Below are positions 40,641-49,987 of a stretch of 64,000 nt of DNA, piece after piece. The stretch lies in assembly GCA_021787665.1 (NCBI GenBank), contig JAJYLN010000013.1, positions 1 through 64,000 on the forward strand, read 5' to 3'. This DNA comes from a bacterium (GTDB lineage Bacteria > JAMCPX01). Numbering within the stretch: position 1 is the stretch's first letter; every line of letters begins with the position of its first letter. Position numbers and translations under genes: made by a program. The notes beneath the pieces were generated by a model. It was not told the DNA's origin, made no database searches, and worked only from the letters and a program-made list of their open reading frames with translations.

Positions 40641-40669
40641 TTGACAATATTCAGCTTCACTATTACACT
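40641..40669 (+). promoter_or_regulatory. Strong sigma-70 promoter abutting the miaB start
   Basis: TTGACA (40641-40646) is a consensus -35 box and TACACT (40664-40669) a good -10 box, with the ideal 17-base spacer. Transcription would start near 40676, only about two bases before the ATG at 40678. No ribosome-binding sequence precedes that ATG. The transcript is predicted to be leaderless or nearly so. Confidence 0.65.
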
Positions 40670-40677
40670 TTTTAAGT

Positions 40678-42006
40678 ATGAAGAAGGTCTATGTCGAGAC
40701 ATACGGGTGCCAGATGAACGAGCACGACTCTGAGCGTATGCTCGCGATCCTCTCCGGCAGGGGTTACCTACGGACCGATAGGCCGGAAGACGCGGGCGTC
40801 GTCATCGTGAACACGTGCAGCGTGAGAGGCAAGGCCGAGCAGAAGGCTTATTCGAGCATCGGCAGGTACGTCGAACTGAAAAAAAGAAGGCCCGGTATGC
40901 GCATCGTCTTCAGCGGCTGCGTGGCGCAGCAGGAAGGAGAGGCAATACTGTCCAGGTTCGAGGGCATCGATGTCGTCCTGGGGCCCTCCCGGGTACATAT
41001 GATAGACGAGCTCCTGGACACGGCCGGGCTGGCGGGCAGTTCCGTCGCTGTGGAGCCATACGGCGGGCAGGACCGGTTCAGGAGTCCTGTGAAAAACTTC
41101 GGCGGTGTAAAGGCCTATGTGACCATCATGGAAGGATGCGACCATTTCTGTACGTACTGCACGGTCCCGTACCTCCGCGGCAGAGAGGTCAGTAGAAGGG
41201 CCAGGGAGATCATAGACGAGGTGGAGGCGCTCGTGGGCTCAGGGGTCAGGGAAGTCACCCTGCTGGGACAGAACGTAACCTCGTACAGGGACGCCTCGGA
41301 GGGCAGGGACATGACGCTGTACTATCTGCTCTCCCTGCTGAACGACATACGTGGGCTCGAGCGTATACGATTTATTACCTCACACCCCAAGGACCTGGAC
41401 GAAAGGCTGATAGCGGCGTTTGCAGACTTCGGCAAGGTATGCCGGCACATGCATCTGCCGGTCCAGTCCGGCAGCGACAGGGTACTGCGGCTCATGGCAA
41501 GGGGGTATACGACGCAGGCGTACATGAACAGCCTCGGGAAGCTGCGGAAGGCTGTGCCGGACATCGCCGTTACATCGGACTTCATCGTGGGCTTTCCCTC
41601 GGAGACCGAGGACGACCACCGGGACACCGTTCTGTTTGTAAAAAATGCAGGGTATGATAACATATTCTCGTTCAAATATTCCGATAGACCGCTCGCAAGG
41701 GCGAGCAAACTGGAGGATAAAGTTCAGCCGGACGTCATAGCGCGGAGGCTCAGGGACCTCCAGTCCGTACAACTCGGGCTGACACGGTACATCTATGCTT
41801 CACTGGTCGGAACGACGCAGCGGGTACTCGTAGAAGGAAACAGCAAGAGACAGGGCAGAATGCAGGGCAGGACTTCACAGGGGAGGATCGTGAACTTCGA
41901 GGGTGTCGCTGACAAGGGCGCTGTGGCTGACATCGTGATTGGAGATTATTCCGATAATGCTTTATATGGCAGATGCATGAACAGGGAGGGCCGGGATGTT
42001 CATTGA
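40678..42006 (+). CDS. miaB: tRNA-2-methylthio-N6-isopentenyladenosine synthase
   Basis: MiaB adds the 2-methylthio group to i6A37 of tRNAs. The 442-residue protein starts with the UPF0004 domain, whose three Cys ligands bind the auxiliary cluster (ETYGCQMNEHDSE, NTCSVRGKAEQK, FSGCVAQQEGE). The radical SAM motif is CDHFCTYCTVPYLRGRE, and a C-terminal TRAM domain begins near 375. The start agrees with the family's usual MKKVYVETYGC beginning. It overlaps the next gene by 11 bases. I-6-A synthase (miaA) is not in the window. Confidence 0.95.
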   Translation: MKKVYVETYGCQMNEHDSERMLAILSGRGYLRTDRPEDAGVVIVNTCSVRGKAEQKAYSSIGRYVELKKRRPGMRIVFSGCVAQQEGEAILSRFEGIDVVLGPSRVHMIDELLDTAGLAGSSVAVEPYGGQDRFRSPVKNFGGVKAYVTIMEGCDHFCTYCTVPYLRGREVSRRAREIIDEVEALVGSGVREVTLLGQNVTSYRDASEGRDMTLYYLLSLLNDIRGLERIRFITSHPKDLDERLIAAFADFGKVCRHMHLPVQSGSDRVLRLMARGYTTQAYMNSLGKLRKAVPDIAVTSDFIVGFPSETEDDHRDTVLFVKNAGYDNIFSFKYSDRPLARASKLEDKVQPDVIARRLRDLQSVQLGLTRYIYASLVGTTQRVLVEGNSKRQGRMQGRTSQGRIVNFEGVADKGAVADIVIGDYSDNALYGRCMNREGRDVH

Positions 42007-42496
42007 GATGAGGGTCGTGGGCGTCATGATCGACCCGGTCAATTCGACACCCATCGTTATCCTGCGCGACAGCGAGAACAAGTATACGCTGCCTATATGG
42101 ATCGGCGTTACCGAGGCCAGCTCAATCATGATGGAACTCGAAGGCATAAAGGCTCCGCGGCCGAACACGCATGACCTCATACGCAGTATATTGGACACGA
42201 TGGGAATCCGTCCAACAAAGGTTGAGATCATGGAGTTGAAAGACAACACCTATTATGCCGTGCTATCCCTGAAGGCAGGTGCCAGGGAGCTCAGGATAGA
42301 CACGCGTCCCTCCGATGCAATAGCCGTGGCACTGAAGACGGCAGTGGCCATATACGTGGAAAAGACGGTGATCGACAAGTCTCTGGAGTCGATCATAGCA
42401 GCAACGGGCATAGCCGACACGGAAGACAAAAAGAAGAAGTACGATGAGATCCTCAAACAGTTCACCCATGCCGATTTCGGAAAGTACAAGATGTAG
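41996..42496 (+). CDS. Bifunctional nuclease (BFN, DUF151) family protein
   Basis: The 166-residue protein has the DUF151 core: VVGVMIDPVNSTPIVILRDSENKYTLPIWIG, here in two parts, then EASSIMMELEGIKAPRPNTHDLI and RELRIDTRPSDAIAVALKTAVAIYV in parts near 95-120. Plant members show both RNase and DNase activity; the bacterial role is not established. The 11-base overlap with miaB is an arrangement I associate with deltaproteobacterial genomes. A helical C-terminal tail of about 40 residues follows. Confidence 0.88.
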   Translation: MFIEMRVVGVMIDPVNSTPIVILRDSENKYTLPIWIGVTEASSIMMELEGIKAPRPNTHDLIRSILDTMGIRPTKVEIMELKDNTYYAVLSLKAGARELRIDTRPSDAIAVALKTAVAIYVEKTVIDKSLESIIAATGIADTEDKKKKYDEILKQFTHADFGKYKM

Positions 42497-42514: not shown

Positions 42515-44365
42515 ATGAATAACGGAAACATACTCGTCATAGACAAAGACAGGTTTTACCGGGAGCTCTACCACGATTTGCTCTCCGGTGTAGGGTACGA
42601 GGTTTTTACCCCGGCAGGCTACGAACTCCCGAACACGGACATGGCAAAGTTCGATCTCGTCATCGTTGAGCCGGGTATCCATGAGGGACAGATGGGATCG
42701 CTGATCGAGAAGGTGAAATCCGTGCGCTACCTCCCGGAGATGCTCGTCGTGACTGCCCAGAGTAGTGCCGCCGCACGATCCTTCATGCCCGACGGCTCAC
42801 TGCACTACACCTACATAAAGAAGCCGTTCGACGACAGCAAGTTCCTGCATATCGTGACGAACATGATTGCGCAGAGACGGCTCTTCATAGAGAAGGAGAA
42901 GCTCGCGAAGGAGGGCATGGAGTATCTTATCCTGCTCGAGGTTTACAAGAGATCGAGCGATATCCTTTCTCAGAGCAGCACCGACGGCGTCCTGAAGAAG
43001 CTGATCGATGCGGTTGTCGTGGAACTGAAGCTTGAGCGGGCCATGTTGTGGTTCAGGACCAGCGATGATACCATGAGCCTGGTCCACTCGTTCGGCTACG
43101 AGACGGAGCCTTACGAGGAGCAAATCTCGATCAACTGGAAGACCTTCCGGTACCGATCAGCGCTGAAGGATGGCCATCTCGTTACGGACAGCGATGAACT
43201 GATGTACCTCCTCATCCAGGGGCAGGACGGTGGCGTGTATGCTATGCTAAGGCTCAAGAAGAAGGGCTCGACGTTTTCCATCCAGGACACGAGAGTGGCA
43301 AGGACGCTCGCCACCTTCGGCGGGATCGCGATATCCAACGCGATAAAGCTATCACAGAAGGTCACCGACACCCTCAGGGCTGACAACCTGCCCGCGTACA
43401 GTTTCCGGTACTTTCTCGAGTATACCGAGAACGAGATCAAGCGATCGCACCGGATGCACAGCATGTTCTCTATTGCGGTGATATCCGTGGAGAACTACCG
43501 GGAGCTCATGGAGGCGTTCAGCAAATCGTACCTGGACGAGGTGTTCGTGAAGATAACGAGCCTGATAAACGAGGTCATACGGGACGCAGACACCCTCTCG
43601 ATCTCCGAGCATGCGAACATGCTCAACCTGTTTCTGCCGGACACGGACTACTTCGGATCGATAATAACCATGCGGAGGATCAAGAATCAGTTGAAGCACA
43701 CGCTCTATGTCACGGACGGCTCGATCACGAAACACGTCGAGATGGTCATAGGCTCGTCGACCTATCCGAACGACGGCACGACCGCGCAAACGCTCCTCGC
43801 CAAGGCCTACGAGATGGCGAAGCGATCGAGGAGCGGCAGGCTGAAGGAGATCGCGTCCATAGAGTCCCTCGGATTCATGGATTTCTCTGACAACATCCTG
43901 AAGATATTCAACAAGCCCATGCAAAACGGGGGTGAGGTGACGACTGCCATCTTCACGACGACGAAGGAACACCTCATGGAGATCATAAACCTGCTTTCCG
44001 GCGATATGCTCGCGAGGCCCTTTATGCGGGGACTCATGTTCCTCGGCATGCCTTCCGTAACGAACGAGGTGAGGATCATCAAGGAGCAGTACAAGCTGTA
44101 CAGCTCGAACACGAAGTTCTACCTGCTCGGCAAGAAGACCAACAACGAATTCATAGACATCTCCTATGCTCCCATCATGATCATCAACGAGGAGATCGGC
44201 GGCAGGTATTTCGTTTTTAACCTGAACGAAGAGTACGCCTACGGTCTCATTACCGGAGAGATAAAGGACCGGCAGTTCCCCGTCTTCCATACGAGCGACC
44301 CGATGATCGTCGAAGAGCTCATCGCAGTCCTGCAGGAGAAATACTTTTTACAAAGACAGATATGA
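42515..44365 (+). CDS. Pseudo-receiver, GAF-like and degenerate GGDEF-like protein
   Basis: The 616-residue protein begins with a CheY-like domain (1-125) that keeps ILVIDKDRF and KKPFDD, but the phospho-acceptor Asp is Glu52 (LVIVEPGIH). A GAF-like region follows (about 150-285, LLEVYKRSSDIL and VARTLATFGGIAISNAI). Next is a diguanylate-cyclase-like fold (about 290-450) where GGDEF is replaced by SEHAN (ISEHANMLNLFLP), so it cannot make c-di-GMP. The last 160 residues (MEIINLLSGDM onward) are unrecognised. It lies 18 bases after the nuclease gene and 3 before the next gene. Confidence 0.7.
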   Translation: MNNGNILVIDKDRFYRELYHDLLSGVGYEVFTPAGYELPNTDMAKFDLVIVEPGIHEGQMGSLIEKVKSVRYLPEMLVVTAQSSAAARSFMPDGSLHYTYIKKPFDDSKFLHIVTNMIAQRRLFIEKEKLAKEGMEYLILLEVYKRSSDILSQSSTDGVLKKLIDAVVVELKLERAMLWFRTSDDTMSLVHSFGYETEPYEEQISINWKTFRYRSALKDGHLVTDSDELMYLLIQGQDGGVYAMLRLKKKGSTFSIQDTRVARTLATFGGIAISNAIKLSQKVTDTLRADNLPAYSFRYFLEYTENEIKRSHRMHSMFSIAVISVENYRELMEAFSKSYLDEVFVKITSLINEVIRDADTLSISEHANMLNLFLPDTDYFGSIITMRRIKNQLKHTLYVTDGSITKHVEMVIGSSTYPNDGTTAQTLLAKAYEMAKRSRSGRLKEIASIESLGFMDFSDNILKIFNKPMQNGGEVTTAIFTTTKEHLMEIINLLSGDMLARPFMRGLMFLGMPSVTNEVRIIKEQYKLYSSNTKFYLLGKKTNNEFIDISYAPIMIINEEIGGRYFVFNLNEEYAYGLITGEIKDRQFPVFHTSDPMIVEELIAVLQEKYFLQRQI

Positions 44366-44368
44366 AAT

Positions 44369-45913
44369 ATGGTAAGGACCAAGGGTAAAATTTTCATAGC
44401 CGATACCGATCAGAAGTCCATCGTTCTGATCAAGGATGCTCTCAAGGCACAGGGGTACACGGTCTCCTCGGCTCTGAACGGGGTAAAGGCACTCGAGCTC
44501 ATCATAGAGCAGCTCCCGGACATCATACTCCTCGGGATGGAACTCCCGATAATAGATACGGAGAAACTCAGGGACATTATCAGCACGAACCCCAGGACGG
44601 ACAAGCTGGCGTGCATATTCATGGGCACGCCCGAACAAATTAAGTCCGTTAGCGCGATGGGAGAGAAGGTCATCACGAAGCCTTTCCGTATTGATGCGCT
44701 CATCAATACCATGTCTGCTATCTATCAGAAAAGACAGAAGGCCATTGAGCTGTCCCGGGAGAACAAGGAGATAGAGGGCAACCTCTCGCAGATATCGCTG
44801 GTGGACCTGATACAGATCTTCAGCATGAACAAGAAGGACGGTACGATTACGATATACTCGGACAAGGGGAACGGGTTCATCTACCTGCAGGAGGGCGGCA
44901 TCATCAATGCGACCTTCGAGAAGGTCGAGGGCGTGAAGGCGTTCTACCGGCTGCTCGCCGTCAGGAACGGCAAGTTCGAGTTCATACCGCATCGTGCCCT
45001 GACCCCGACGCGGATTACGTCGACGACAGAATCTCTCCTCATGGAGGGCATGAGACACATCGACGAGACGAAGAAAAACAAGAACATCCTGCCGTCCATG
45101 GAGTCCAGGGTGAAGCTGAAGAAAAAGCTGTCCGAGCTGCCCAAGCAGGTAAGGACGATAACCCAGGAGGTGCTCCTGTTGCTCGAATTCTACGACAAGG
45201 TCGAGGACATCGTGGACAACTGTACCTTCCCGGACTACGATGTCCTGCGTGTTCTCGTGGCGCTTATCGAGAAGGGCATCATCGAGATCATAAAGCAGGC
45301 GCAACCGAAGCAAGGTACGACCGGTGCCGGTATCCTCGCAAACGAAGAGGTCTTCAAGCTCCTGGAGATCGTTTCGGTCAACAAACACACGAAACTCGAA
45401 TCACACCGGGGAAGGATAATAGTCCTCTCGGCAAACTACAACTCGCTCAAGACCTTCGTAAACGGTATCAACAGTATGCCCCGGTTTGTCCTGAACAGCT
45501 CTTTTGCGATAGCGAACCGGGACGATGTGTTCTTCGGAGAGGTGGGCATGCTGACCCTTACGGAGCTCCTCGGTATCGAGATTCTCTCGGTGCCGCCGCT
45601 GATCGAGTACGGCCCCCTATGGCTAGCGCTGTCCAACAGCACCGTAGGTGCCGTCATTGTCTTCGATAAAGGGTCGAAAGACATCCTCGGTCCCTTCCTG
45701 AACGCCGTGAACAAGTTCAGAGAGGCGAGGAGCCTGCCCGTTGCCTATGTGTTTGTGACACCGGACCAGGTCGAATCGAAGGGCAAGACCGTACCGACAC
45801 TGCGCAAGCTCCTAGCAGCCGGCAACGAAGACCCCGTGTTCGTCTTCGACAAGGACTCTGCGGACAGCATGAATGTCATCCCTGCACTCCTGAGGAAGGT
45901 CATCAGCATATGA
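44369..45913 (+). CDS. Pseudo-receiver, DUF4388 and degenerate GTPase-like protein
   Basis: The 514-residue protein has three parts. Residues 1-125 are a receiver with Gly56 in place of the phospho-acceptor Asp (DIILLGMELP), although the N-terminal acidic ADTDQ and ITKPF Lys remain. Residues about 133-230 are a PatA-type DUF4388 domain (GNLSQISLVDLIQIFSMNKKDG in two parts, FIYLQEGGIINATF). Residues about 350-514 follow the pattern of MglA-like small GTPases, but the P-loop reads SANYNSLKTF, with only the KT of GxxGxGKT retained. All regulatory modules seem to be binding scaffolds. The PHP gene overlaps its end by 4 bases. Confidence 0.7.
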   Translation: MVRTKGKIFIADTDQKSIVLIKDALKAQGYTVSSALNGVKALELIIEQLPDIILLGMELPIIDTEKLRDIISTNPRTDKLACIFMGTPEQIKSVSAMGEKVITKPFRIDALINTMSAIYQKRQKAIELSRENKEIEGNLSQISLVDLIQIFSMNKKDGTITIYSDKGNGFIYLQEGGIINATFEKVEGVKAFYRLLAVRNGKFEFIPHRALTPTRITSTTESLLMEGMRHIDETKKNKNILPSMESRVKLKKKLSELPKQVRTITQEVLLLLEFYDKVEDIVDNCTFPDYDVLRVLVALIEKGIIEIIKQAQPKQGTTGAGILANEEVFKLLEIVSVNKHTKLESHRGRIIVLSANYNSLKTFVNGINSMPRFVLNSSFAIANRDDVFFGEVGMLTLTELLGIEILSVPPLIEYGPLWLALSNSTVGAVIVFDKGSKDILGPFLNAVNKFREARSLPVAYVFVTPDQVESKGKTVPTLRKLLAAGNEDPVFVFDKDSADSMNVIPALLRKVISI

Positions 45914-46557
45914 TAGACCTCCACACGCATTCTTTCTTCAGCGATGGAGATCTGGTACCCTCGGAGCTTGTCCGGAGGGCAGAGGTCATCGGCATAGGAA
46001 CGCTGGCGATTACCGACCACGTCGATTTTTCGAACTACCGGTTCATCATAGAACATGTGAAGGCCGCTGCGCGGGAGTTGTCAGGAAGAAAAAAGGGCAT
46101 ACGGGTTCTTGCAGGCGTAGAGATAACCCATGTCCCGGCCGTTGATGTCCCCAGGCTTATCGAGTTATCGAGAAAGGCCGGCGCTGCGGTCGTTGTCGTC
46201 CACGGGGAGACCATTGTGGAGCCCGTGGAGCAGAAGACCAACCTCTCCGGCATAGAAGGGCGTGCGGACATTATTGCACACCCGGGCCTTATCACGATAC
46301 GCGAGGCCGAGCTTGCAGCGAAAAAAGGGGTCTTCCTCGAGATTAGCGGCAGATGCGGGCACAGCTTCACGAACGGACATGTGGCAGCGGTCGCCCGGAA
46401 AACGGGTGCCGGTCTCGTGTTCGATTCGGATGCCCATACGGACCGGGATCTCATGGACTACGACCGGGCACTGAAGATCGTACAGGGTGCCGGACTGACG
46501 GATAAAGATTTCGACGTGATGCTGAAGAATTCCAGAAAGATTGTTCAGGAGAGATGA
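45910..46557 (+). CDS. PHP-domain phosphoesterase
   Basis: The 215-residue protein has the PHP metal-binding motifs in order: DLHTHSFFSDGDLVPSEL with HxH, ITDHVDF, GVEITHVP, IAHPGLI near 118 and DSDAHTDRDLMDYD near 177. Histidinol-phosphate-type phosphatase or another phosphoester hydrolysis is possible. The genes around it do not point to histidine synthesis. Its ATG overlaps the previous gene's stop as ATGA and the next gene's ATG follows its stop by one base. Confidence 0.85.
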   Translation: MIDLHTHSFFSDGDLVPSELVRRAEVIGIGTLAITDHVDFSNYRFIIEHVKAAARELSGRKKGIRVLAGVEITHVPAVDVPRLIELSRKAGAAVVVVHGETIVEPVEQKTNLSGIEGRADIIAHPGLITIREAELAAKKGVFLEISGRCGHSFTNGHVAAVARKTGAGLVFDSDAHTDRDLMDYDRALKIVQGAGLTDKDFDVMLKNSRKIVQER

Positions 46558-46558
46558 C

Positions 46559-49500
46559 ATGATCCTCAGGTGTGAAAACTGTAAGACGATGTACATGTTT
46601 ACCGAGGCGCAGCTTAAGGCCCAGGACTATAAGTTTGCATGCAAGAAATGCGGACACGAGAACACGGTAGCGCTGCCCGCAGAGGCTGGTGGGAACGAGC
46701 ATGCCGGGGCGCCCATTCTGACCGAGACAAAGCCTCCGGAGGCCGCAGGAACGGCCGCCCCGCAGATGCCGGAGCAGCAAGAAGCGCCGGAAGGAGGCTT
46801 GGAAGCGGCACAGGAGGCACTGCTGAAGGGTATGCCCAATGAGTCACTGAAAGAGGCGGAGATCCCTCGGGAAACGAAGGCACCACCCCAGCAGCAAGAG
46901 CCAGCTCCCGAACATGAAGGGTCTGAGTTGGGAGATATATTCTCTTCTCTCGATACCGCAAAGACTGACGAAAAGCAGCCGGCGCCCATGGATGAGTCCA
47001 TGTCGGCACCCGTGCAGCAGGATGCCCCTGCACCATCGCCCGGGAGTGGTGCGGCCGGGGCAGAGTCACCGCATAAGGACGAGGGCATTATAGAGGGCTT
47101 CGAGGAGTTCACCATGGACGATCTCAAGGGCACCGAGGAGGGTCGGTCCGGTACAGACGAAGTCCAGGGCGGCGGCGAACCAGCAGGGCAGCAGGAAACG
47201 GGTTGGCTCGAGTCTACGAAGATCGACGATACCCTCGGTGTCCCCGGCCAGGACGATCTGTCCGGAGAGACGGTCCCGATGGAAGATACGATGCCGGAGA
47301 TGCTGAAGGACAACGAGGCAACGGCGTCAAGCGCCCATGAGGCTGGAGTCCAGCAGGAGCATCAGGCCACAGAACATTCCTTGTTGACGGACGAGACCTC
47401 GGTCATTCCGGAAGTGCCGCAGGCCACGGAGAGTCTGTTTCAGGAGACGGAAGAAGCGGTGCCGGTATACCACGGGCACCTGATGAAGGTTCTTATCGCG
47501 GCAGGTGCGGGCCTCCTTGTCGTCATCCTGATGCTGCTGGGAATCTACTATTACCTCGTCGAATACAGCCCGGCACACCCGGACTTCAACAAGCTGACCC
47601 TTATGACGTACAGCTTTTTCCCTGTCTCGGACAGGGCAAAGGACCAGGCCCGGCATATGCTGAAAGAGGCCGATGCGCTGTATCAGGAGGACACCGTATA
47701 CGCCTATCGGAAGTCCCTGGGCCTCTATGAGAAGGCCGCAGCAACAGATCATCGCCTTACCGGTGCGTTCGTCGGCATCGTCAAGGACTACGCGATGCTG
47801 AAAGACATAGACAAAACCGGTGTACGGATAAAGGACAGCGCCAGGCTCGTTACAAGGATCGGATCGCTCATGCATGACGATGCGGAGTATGATCTACTGC
47901 AGGGTATGGTAGCCATTGCGAACGATGACCTCTCCGTCGCATCGGACAAGATCCGGATGGCGCTCGAAAAATCGCCGAAGCTCCCGGAAGCACTGTACTA
48001 CAGGGCGTACATCGGCTTCAGTCAGGGAGCGACACTGACCGCCACCGCCTCGGACCTCACGCAGGTGATCGCGCTCGATCCGGCTATGACAAAGGCACAG
48101 CTTCTCCTCGCCGAGGTATACCGGCAGCAGCAAGATGCCCCCCATGCCATCGAAATCCTCGAGGGTATTCTGGGCAGAGACCCGTATAATACTGCCGCAG
48201 GAATACAAGAAGCAGAGCTCGAGACGAACACCACGAACACGGTCCAGCAGTCCATTGCTGCGCTCAACACTATGGTGGCCAAGGGCGCGCATGAGATCGA
48301 CGACTACGACCGTGCACGGGTGTACCTTGAAATGGGCAAGCTGGAATTGTTCGATAACGACTATCGAGCCGCCATAGATGCATTCAAGTCATCCATCCAG
48401 AGCCGGCGAACGACGGCGGCATACCTTGCCCTCGGCAACGCGTATCTCCATGGGGGTAACCTGAGCGATGCGGAGACCCAGTACCAGACAGCGGTATCGT
48501 CGGACAGCAGCTCGGCAGAAGCGAGATTCAGACTTGCACACGCATATTACCTCGATCACAAGTATGTGCTCGCTATTGCGAGCTATTCGGACGGTTTGAG
48601 GATACAGGGCGACAATCCTCGGGCACTGTACGGGCTTTCGCGAGCACGGGAGAAAAACGGTGAGCTCGATATCGCCCTGGACGTTATCGAGAAGGCGGTC
48701 AAACTATCGCCCGACAGCCCTGCATTCATCGTGCTGGACGGGAGATTGCTGAGAGAAAAGGGCGACTATAAGAAGGCCTTGGCCATACTCTCGAATGCCG
48801 TCGGGAGGTTTCCTGACTATGCGCCGCTCCATACGGAGTACGGCGTGGTGCTGGGTGATACCGGCGACTATAAAGACGCGATACAGCAGTTGACCGCCGC
48901 TCTGCAGATATCGCCTGCTGCGACAGATAGCTATGCGTACATGGCGGACATGCTGGACAGGACCGGAAAGTATCCGGAGGCGGAAAAGTACGCGAAGGAG
49001 GCGCTATCGGGCACCAACAACTTCCCCTACGCCTATGAGGTGCTGGGGAACGTCTACCTTCACGAGCAGAAACTCAGCGATGCCATCAGGTCATATACCA
49101 CCGCCATCTCTCTCATGCCCTACGACGCCGAGGTACAGTACAGGCTCGCACAGGCATATAAAGCGGGCAAAATGTTTACGGAGGCGGTCACGTATCTTGA
49201 CGGCGCCATAAAGCTGAGTCCGAACAATGCCCTGTACCACTACTGTCTCGGCAATGTATACCGGGATATGGGTAACATACAGTCCGCCATCGATGAGTAC
49301 TCGAAGGCATTGGACGCCGACAGTGCGATGGCCGACGCCTATTACCAGAGGGGACTCATGAACGTCGCGGGTCGGAACGATCTCGCTGCCGTCAACGATC
49401 TGAAGAATGCGATCAAGTATGCGCCGAATAATCCCACTTATATGCTTGCACTGGCGAACTACTACTATACGAACAAGGAGACATTCTCGGCCATAGCTTA

Positions 49501-49987
49501 TCTGAAGCAGGCCCTGAAAAGTGCACCGAAGAACGCAGAGATCCACAGTAAGCTCGGCACGGCGTATAACTATATAGGAAAGACCGATGAAGCGAGAAGA
49601 GAGTTTACCGAGGCTCTCACATTGTCCCACGATTTTCCGGATGCCCTGATCGGCATGGGCAGTATCTCGTACCAGCAGGGAAACATGCAAAGGGCACAGC
49701 AATACTACGAGAAGGCCGTGAGGCTGAGCCCGCAGGACGGTGATGCGCACTATGCCCTGGGTACGGTGTACGAGTATAACGGTATGTACGAGAAAGCACT
49801 GGCAGAATACCGCGATGCGACACGCCTCAGCAGCAACCCTGCGAGCGCCTATTTCAAGGTGGGGATGATGCTGGCAAATCTCAACGAGCCGCACAGGGCA
49901 AAGGCTGCCCTCATGAAGGCGATAAACTTAGGTCTTCCCGGCGATATGGAAAGCGCAGCAAAAAACAAATTAAGAAATCTCATGTAG
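46559..49987 (+). CDS. Giant membrane-anchored TPR protein with N-terminal MJ0042 zinc ribbon
   Basis: The 1142-residue protein starts with a zinc ribbon (LRCENCKTMYMF and FACKKCGHEN, CxxC-CxxC) of the MJ0042 type. A disordered region of about 270 residues rich in Glu, Pro, Ala and Gln follows, then one TM helix near 310-333. The periplasmic part of about 800 residues is almost all TPR repeats, some twenty units such as YAKEALSGTNNFPYAYEVLG and DEYSKALDADSAMADAYYQRG. This topology (cytoplasmic ribbon, extracytoplasmic TPR array) suggests a scaffold. ATG 46559 with AGGAGAG is preferred over TTG 46541. Confidence 0.8.
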   Translation: MILRCENCKTMYMFTEAQLKAQDYKFACKKCGHENTVALPAEAGGNEHAGAPILTETKPPEAAGTAAPQMPEQQEAPEGGLEAAQEALLKGMPNESLKEAEIPRETKAPPQQQEPAPEHEGSELGDIFSSLDTAKTDEKQPAPMDESMSAPVQQDAPAPSPGSGAAGAESPHKDEGIIEGFEEFTMDDLKGTEEGRSGTDEVQGGGEPAGQQETGWLESTKIDDTLGVPGQDDLSGETVPMEDTMPEMLKDNEATASSAHEAGVQQEHQATEHSLLTDETSVIPEVPQATESLFQETEEAVPVYHGHLMKVLIAAGAGLLVVILMLLGIYYYLVEYSPAHPDFNKLTLMTYSFFPVSDRAKDQARHMLKEADALYQEDTVYAYRKSLGLYEKAAATDHRLTGAFVGIVKDYAMLKDIDKTGVRIKDSARLVTRIGSLMHDDAEYDLLQGMVAIANDDLSVASDKIRMALEKSPKLPEALYYRAYIGFSQGATLTATASDLTQVIALDPAMTKAQLLLAEVYRQQQDAPHAIEILEGILGRDPYNTAAGIQEAELETNTTNTVQQSIAALNTMVAKGAHEIDDYDRARVYLEMGKLELFDNDYRAAIDAFKSSIQSRRTTAAYLALGNAYLHGGNLSDAETQYQTAVSSDSSSAEARFRLAHAYYLDHKYVLAIASYSDGLRIQGDNPRALYGLSRAREKNGELDIALDVIEKAVKLSPDSPAFIVLDGRLLREKGDYKKALAILSNAVGRFPDYAPLHTEYGVVLGDTGDYKDAIQQLTAALQISPAATDSYAYMADMLDRTGKYPEAEKYAKEALSGTNNFPYAYEVLGNVYLHEQKLSDAIRSYTTAISLMPYDAEVQYRLAQAYKAGKMFTEAVTYLDGAIKLSPNNALYHYCLGNVYRDMGNIQSAIDEYSKALDADSAMADAYYQRGLMNVAGRNDLAAVNDLKNAIKYAPNNPTYMLALANYYYTNKETFSAIAYLKQALKSAPKNAEIHSKLGTAYNYIGKTDEARREFTEALTLSHDFPDALIGMGSISYQQGNMQRAQQYYEKAVRLSPQDGDAHYALGTVYEYNGMYEKALAEYRDATRLSSNPASAYFKVGMMLANLNEPHRAKAALMKAINLGLPGDMESAAKNKLRNLM

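Follow-up and report, generated by a model that had tools for sequence, protein, structure and literature searches.

P1 and P2, an adjacent pair of catalytically degenerate signaling proteins found in at least five phyla, point to a regulatory adaptor that possibly senses c-di-GMP

Overview of the P1-P2 pair

The window analyzed in this study is a stretch of 64,000 nucleotides (positions 1 to 64,000 of contig JAJYLN010000013.1, assembly GCA_021787665.1) from a bacterium of the lineage JAMCPX01. Two adjacent genes of this window, referred to as P1 (positions 42515-44365; 616 amino acid residues) and P2 (44369-45913; 514 amino acid residues), encode proteins with degenerate catalytic sites, and their maintenance side by side suggests a so far undescribed regulatory adaptor that may sense cyclic di-GMP (c-di-GMP). 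Both genes are intact open reading frames (ORFs) separated by a gap of 3 bases, as a preliminary description of this stretch had stated, and, like all features given below, they lie on the forward (+) strand. P1 is predicted to possess a receiver, a GAF-like part, a catalytically dead GGDEF domain and a DICT-like C-terminus, of which the GAF-like and DICT-like parts had not been described before. P2 is predicted to consist of a receiver, a DUF4388 (PATAN) domain, a helical region that resembles a winged helix-turn-helix and a pseudo-small-GTPase.

The reading tentatively preferred here is that of a regulatory adaptor composed of two co-inherited pseudo-enzymes, P1 and P2, of which P1 reads c-di-GMP. 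By analogy with PopA and SgmT, P1 would bind c-di-GMP at its I-site, its receiver and DICT-like domains would set its assembly state, and it would contact P2. The PATAN domain and the nucleotide-free GTPase-fold domain of P2 would serve for the docking of proteins that partner with small GTPases of the MglA/PATAN sphere. The level or location of c-di-GMP would then direct the assembly or placement of the complex, with neither phosphoryl transfer nor GTP hydrolysis. In the lineage of the window the receivers, with a conserved Glu in P1 and Gly or Ser in P2, would no longer need phosphorylation. The PHP and TPR proteins encoded downstream would be accessory partners that depend on the lineage.

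Individual examples of dead GGDEF domains and of pseudo-receivers are known. A constant pair uniting a dead cyclase with a PATAN domain and a dead small GTPase, adjacent throughout at least five phyla, would be a testable case of signaling machinery kept for binding alone, and its occurrence in Myxococcota-like bacteria makes it testable in a genetically tractable relative. No description of the P1-P2 pair was found in the open-access literature searched.

Conservation and selection

In each of the 24 relatives inspected, and in 30 of 30 further loci of one phylum, P1 and P2 were neighbors in an unchanged order. The 30 further loci end just inside the GGDEF region of P1 and inform only the counts of adjacency, of the P-loop and of the Asp of P2. 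At least five phyla carried P1-P2, namely the separate groups of genomes G022, G035, G051 and G056 and the window's own. The family of the window comprised genomes G001-G008, with which the next nearest genomes in the searched set share only the rank of domain. In the phylum of G035, which is probably Myxococcota, the C-terminus of P2 was identified in 130 of 193 genomes, nearly always as a single copy. Orthologs of different lineages were just 16-23% identical to those of the window. The P1 and P2 trees had the same terminal clades, and their deep nodes were not resolved.

Within the family, the ratios of nonsynonymous to synonymous substitution rates (dN/dS) of P1 and P2 were ~0.03-0.12, similar to those of the neighboring bifunctional-nuclease and PHP genes where measurable. 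The ratios by domain were also low throughout, including 0.06-0.09 for the dead GTPase and 0.03 for the dead GGDEF domain. P1 and P2 are kept by purifying selection and are not decaying. The loss of four functional sites could suggest that the two proteins are decaying remnants of an active signaling pair. That explanation is hardly credible and is refuted by the intact frames, the low dN/dS and the adjacency over at least five phyla. The preliminary description, which had taken the losses as signs of a scaffold and not of decay, was therefore right with regard to decay.

The pseudo-GGDEF domain of P1 and its I-site

The GGDEF domain of P1 (residues 298-436; 43406-43822) was recognized by Pfam (E = 9.9e-12) and TIGR00254 and was aligned with canonical GGEEF proteins. 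As described previously, SEHAN (S364-E-H-A-N368; 43604-43618) stands at the position of the GGDEF motif, and the DxDxFKxxND motif is also replaced. The GGDEF motif was missing in all 24 P1 orthologs. The GG[D/E]EF A-site and the metal- and substrate-binding Asp/Asn residues of an active diguanylate cyclase were found neither in P1 nor in any ortholog (0/24), and P1 is predicted to lack this activity.

The I-site residues of P1 (43580-43678) are Arg356 (43580-43582), Asp359 (43589-43591) and Arg388 (43676-43678). Arg356 and Asp359 were present in all 24 orthologs and Arg388 in 22 of them. Except for a one-residue insertion in the family of the window, their spacing is that of R763/D766/R794 of SgmT (PMC3509222). 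The GGDEF domains of SgmT and PopA possess degenerate A-sites and intact I-sites, and both proteins bind c-di-GMP and use it for localization (PMC3509222). With its Arg-x-x-Asp motif intact, P1 has the sequence features of an I-site receptor with a degenerate A-site of the PopA/SgmT kind. Similar to PopA of Caulobacter and SgmT of Myxococcus, P1 combines a dead catalytic motif, the I-site Arg-x-x-Asp and a downstream Arg with a receiver and/or GAF domain in one chain. Different from them, it has a DICT-like C-terminus but no kinase, its gene is partnered by that of a pseudo-GTPase, and it is a putative binder of c-di-GMP. ActA of Myxococcus xanthus, in which a receiver is joined to a GGDEF domain with a degenerate A-site and an intact I-site (PMC3509222), is also like P1 in having a receiver followed by a dead GGDEF domain with an I-site, as compared by description only.

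Instead of reading a nucleotide, P1 and P2 might be a constitutive form of the scaffold that the preliminary description had proposed, with an I-site kept for folding only and pseudo-domains that hold partners. Such a scaffold would fit with the death of every catalytic site and with docking being a common role of pseudo-domains. It would also fit with two findings that weigh against P1 as a c-di-GMP reader. Arg-x-x-Asp with a later Arg is the general GGDEF consensus, so its retention could be structural, and the three canonical GGEEF control proteins carry the same I-site residues, which consequently do not discriminate. Nevertheless, Arg356 and Asp359 are two of only seven invariant positions in the pseudo-GGDEF segment of the 24 orthologs, despite identities as low as 16-23%, and Arg388 is nearly as well conserved, which makes the scaffold doubtful. 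Mainly because the I-site residues are retained, a ligand-reading adaptor is preferred over an inert scaffold.

The DICT-like C-terminus of P1

The C-terminal part of P1 (approximately residues 455-616; 43877-44362) matched DICT (PF10069) sequences in hhalign (87.7%, E = 3.4e-6), whereas controls reached no more than ~1.2%. The DICT matches of Pfam were not significant, the best having an E-value of 0.14 in one member. Because Pfam alone falls short of significance, this part is called DICT-like and not DICT. Scans of single sequences against Pfam and NCBIfam assigned neither DICT to P1 nor a GTPase to P2, and a profile search of PDB with the C-terminus of P1 returned nothing sensible. AlphaFold2 models of the C-terminal parts of P2 and P1, built from shallow family alignments, had pLDDT values of 39 and 43, respectively, and were unusable.

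The pseudo-small-GTPase and other domains of P2

The C-terminal domain of P2 (residues 340-514; 45386-45910) was assigned by hhalign and by a reciprocal match. Its alignment matched intact small GTPases of the GPFAAGKT type with 96.5% (E = 8e-10), whereas canonical MglA reached 6.3% and unrelated domains stayed below 6%. Used as a query against genomes, this alignment also matched intact small GTPases that form proteins of their own in G021 (1.7e-11), G499 (1.7e-9) and G504 (6.4e-8), with GPFAAGKT or GPFASGKT as their P-loops. In the reverse search with the intact GTPase of G021, the top match in the window's genome was P2 (45536-45907, E = 2.7e-8). Moreover, a DUF4388 gene directly precedes the intact GTPase gene in G021 and G499, an order that equals that of the fused domains of P2. 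By these profile comparisons, residues 340-514 of P2 are descended from a small GTPase related to the GPFAAGKT subgroup. A profile search of PDB with the C-terminus of P2 gave only weak Rab/Ras matches (E = 0.14-0.5), which are suggestive and were not used as proof.

MglA itself was considered as the identity of this domain and rejected, given the 6.3% match as opposed to 96.5% for the GPFAAGKT subgroup and the presence of true mglA genes elsewhere in the genome. The MglA-like, eroded GTPase of the preliminary description is hence retained with regard to GTPase ancestry and withdrawn with regard to affinity to MglA.

The degenerate P-loop (45428-45454) consists of S354..L360-K361-T362, of which only KT recalls the motif, as had been described, and the relatives of P2 do not conserve even KT. 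The G1 motif GxxxxGK[ST] was absent in the 24 orthologs and the 30 further loci, and the G3 and G4 positions were degenerate in the 24. Judged by these motifs, the C-terminus of P2 is a pseudo-GTPase. Thus, it is homologous to the intact GPFAAGKT subgroup of the prokaryotic Ras-like small GTPases (MglA/Rup families; PMC4316618), but differs from these GTPases in the loss of the nucleotide motifs G1, G3 and G4 from every ortholog and in its poor match to canonical MglA.

In loci L118 (G021) and L120 (G499), the DUF4388 gene and the intact GPFAAGKT-type small GTPase gene are followed by a lipoprotein gene, and this arrangement resembles an unfused, catalytically live counterpart of P2. In a 596-residue ORF of locus L119 (G052:C80), a receiver-DUF4388 portion and a long linker are combined with a C-terminal segment similar to the pseudo-GTPase, and this ORF is possibly a diverged P2-like protein. 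It adjoins a second receiver-DUF4388 gene.

The DUF4388/PATAN domain of P2 (PF14332; 44774-45070), also noted previously, was matched with an E-value of 3.6e-23 and 82.3 bits, compared with a curated cut-off of 25. Similar to PATAN/DUF4388 response regulators, such as PatA, those of the PixG type, and MXAN_3211 and MXAN_4965, P2 combines a receiver with DUF4388 and occurs in genomes with MglA. Different from them, P2 carries the dead small GTPase as an additional domain and has P1 as its constant partner, the comparison with MXAN_3211 and MXAN_4965 being by description only. The window's genome has 8 DUF4388 matches, which is many for 2.25 Mb, and the partner domains include receivers, J-domain-like parts and TPR parts.

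The helical region that separates DUF4388 from the GTPase fold is conserved, and its helix pattern after DUF4388 recalls winged helices. Given that P2 is also headed by a receiver, like many transcription factors, it could be a DNA-binding regulator that acts via this region, with P1 as a co-regulator. This is very unlikely, however, as no significant DNA-binding family was found in Pfam or NCBIfam, the sole Pfam match in the region being DnaD_N below threshold (E = 0.077).

The receiver domains of P1 and P2

The receiver of P2 (44390-44710) was identified by Pfam with an E-value of 6.7e-9. The receiver-like domain of P1 (42515-42874) had an E-value of 0.014, which was under the cut-off, and its alignment matched that of the P2 receiver with 99.1% in hhalign. 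By this comparison the N-terminus of P1 is a true receiver relative. The preliminary description would have been contradicted had the receiver and GTPase regions been unrelated folds, and profile comparisons support both homologies.

The phospho-acceptor Asp is replaced by Glu52 (codon 42668-42670) in P1, whose KPF lysine region is kept, and by Gly56 (44534-44536) in P2. Both replacements had been pointed out before, and both stand where relatives carry Asp. Within the family of the window, this position was always Glu in P1 and either Gly or Ser in P2; it was Asn in the P2 of the group designated f138. G022, G035 and many other genomes retained the P2 Asp, and so did 30 of 30 Myxococcota-like loci. 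Several Myxococcota-like relatives kept the full Asp/Lys set in the P1 receiver, and some lineages lacked the P1 receiver entirely. As judged from these residues, both receivers are pseudo-receivers in the window's lineage. A change from Asp to Glu can be phosphomimetic (PMC12632262).

Because the losses of the GGDEF motif and of the P-loop are common to every ortholog examined, they are ancestral. On this distribution, two of the site losses (GGDEF and GTPase) are ancient and two (the receivers) are local. The four independent losses of the preliminary description are thus four losses in intact frames, of which only those of the receivers are local.

FrzS of M. xanthus is a pseudo-receiver adaptor that acts on SgmX (PMC11580455). 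Similar to P1 and P2, its receiver lacks phosphorylation residues and serves as an interaction module. Different from P1 and P2, FrzS possesses a coiled coil and has no GGDEF, PATAN or GTPase part.

Co-occurrence with MglA

PATAN genes have been found in the vicinity of mglA and mglB (PMC4316618), and the two M. xanthus PATAN proteins MXAN_3211 and MXAN_4965 co-occur with the MglA effector SgmX (PMC11580455). In a sample of 60 genomes, MglA was present in 5 of 5 lineages with P2 and in 15 of 47 others (one-sided p ~0.006), a co-occurrence that is a hint of a tie between P1-P2 and polarity but rests on five lineages, with a p-value uncorrected for phylogeny, and to that extent also counts against the preferred adaptor. 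It is rather unlikely, though conceivable, that P1-P2 is a cross-phylum device with a dead diguanylate cyclase as the reader of c-di-GMP, from which the signal goes on to a PATAN response regulator with a fused, dead Ras-like GTPase. The latter protein would occupy or displace small-GTPase partners and so couple c-di-GMP to MglA-type polarity, with no catalysis at any step.

A second receiver-headed DUF4388 protein of 560 amino acid residues is encoded ~7 kb from mglA in the window's genome (G000:C17:169101-176841; L002, L136 and L186). The spacing of ~7 kb recurs in G001, G003, G005, G006 and G008, making this a conserved PATAN-MglA neighborhood.

Gene neighborhood

P1 and P2 are part of a tight, co-directional gene run with the order miaB, bifunctional nuclease, P1, P2, PHP, Zn-ribbon/TPR and smc. 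The ORF of miaB (40678-42006) is followed by that of the bifunctional nuclease (41996-42496; Pfam BFN_dom). The PHP phosphoesterase gene (45910-46557), of the PRK06361 family (NF004981, 277 bits compared with a cut-off of 117), overlaps P2 by 4 bases, and the gene of the Zn-ribbon/membrane/TPR protein (46559-49987; Pfam TPR matches) abuts both the PHP gene and smc. The overlap and abutment agree with those described previously. By consensus match only, the best promoter-like site of the region (40641-40669) is located just ahead of miaB, and no terminator-like site on this strand precedes 50372, inside smc. The miaB and bifunctional-nuclease genes are apparently in one transcription unit with P1-P2.

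The PHP gene followed P2 in the family of the window and in six genomes (G022, G051, G252, G370, G339 and G474), and not in the remaining ones. Linkage of the TPR gene to P1-P2 was found in the family and G022 alone. In most lineages examined, including all nine Myxococcota-like loci, G308, G442, G569, G348, G386, G484 and G056, neither PHP nor TPR was found near P1-P2. Upstream, miaB was present in many lineages, and dapF was directly upstream in 9 of 9 Myxococcota-like loci. The conserved unit is P1-P2, and PHP and TPR are lineage-dependent.

The preliminary description had suggested that the whole block of 42515-49987 (P1, P2, PHP and the Zn-ribbon TPR protein) may form one envelope or polarity system. 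Tight co-directional packing without a forward terminator-like site inside would be expected of such a system, and the gene order through smc is the same in the family and in G022, which belongs to another phylum, with PHP extending to the five other genomes named above. However, most lineages examined have P1-P2 with neither partner nearby, the TPR gene changes at a much higher rate than the P1 and P2 genes, and miaB and smc are linked equally, which gives the run the look of a housekeeping operon. A single system of this extent is thus improbable. The proposal is supported only in part, and its core is reduced to P1-P2.

The TPR protein opens (46559-46700) with an MJ0042-type zinc ribbon (CxxC...CxxC), after which come an acidic stretch and a single hydrophobic segment that is membrane-like. 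G022 encodes the ribbon and the TPR part in separate genes. Finally, several lineages (L044, L046, L101, L122, L123 and L124) have a small VanZ-like membrane gene immediately ahead of P1.

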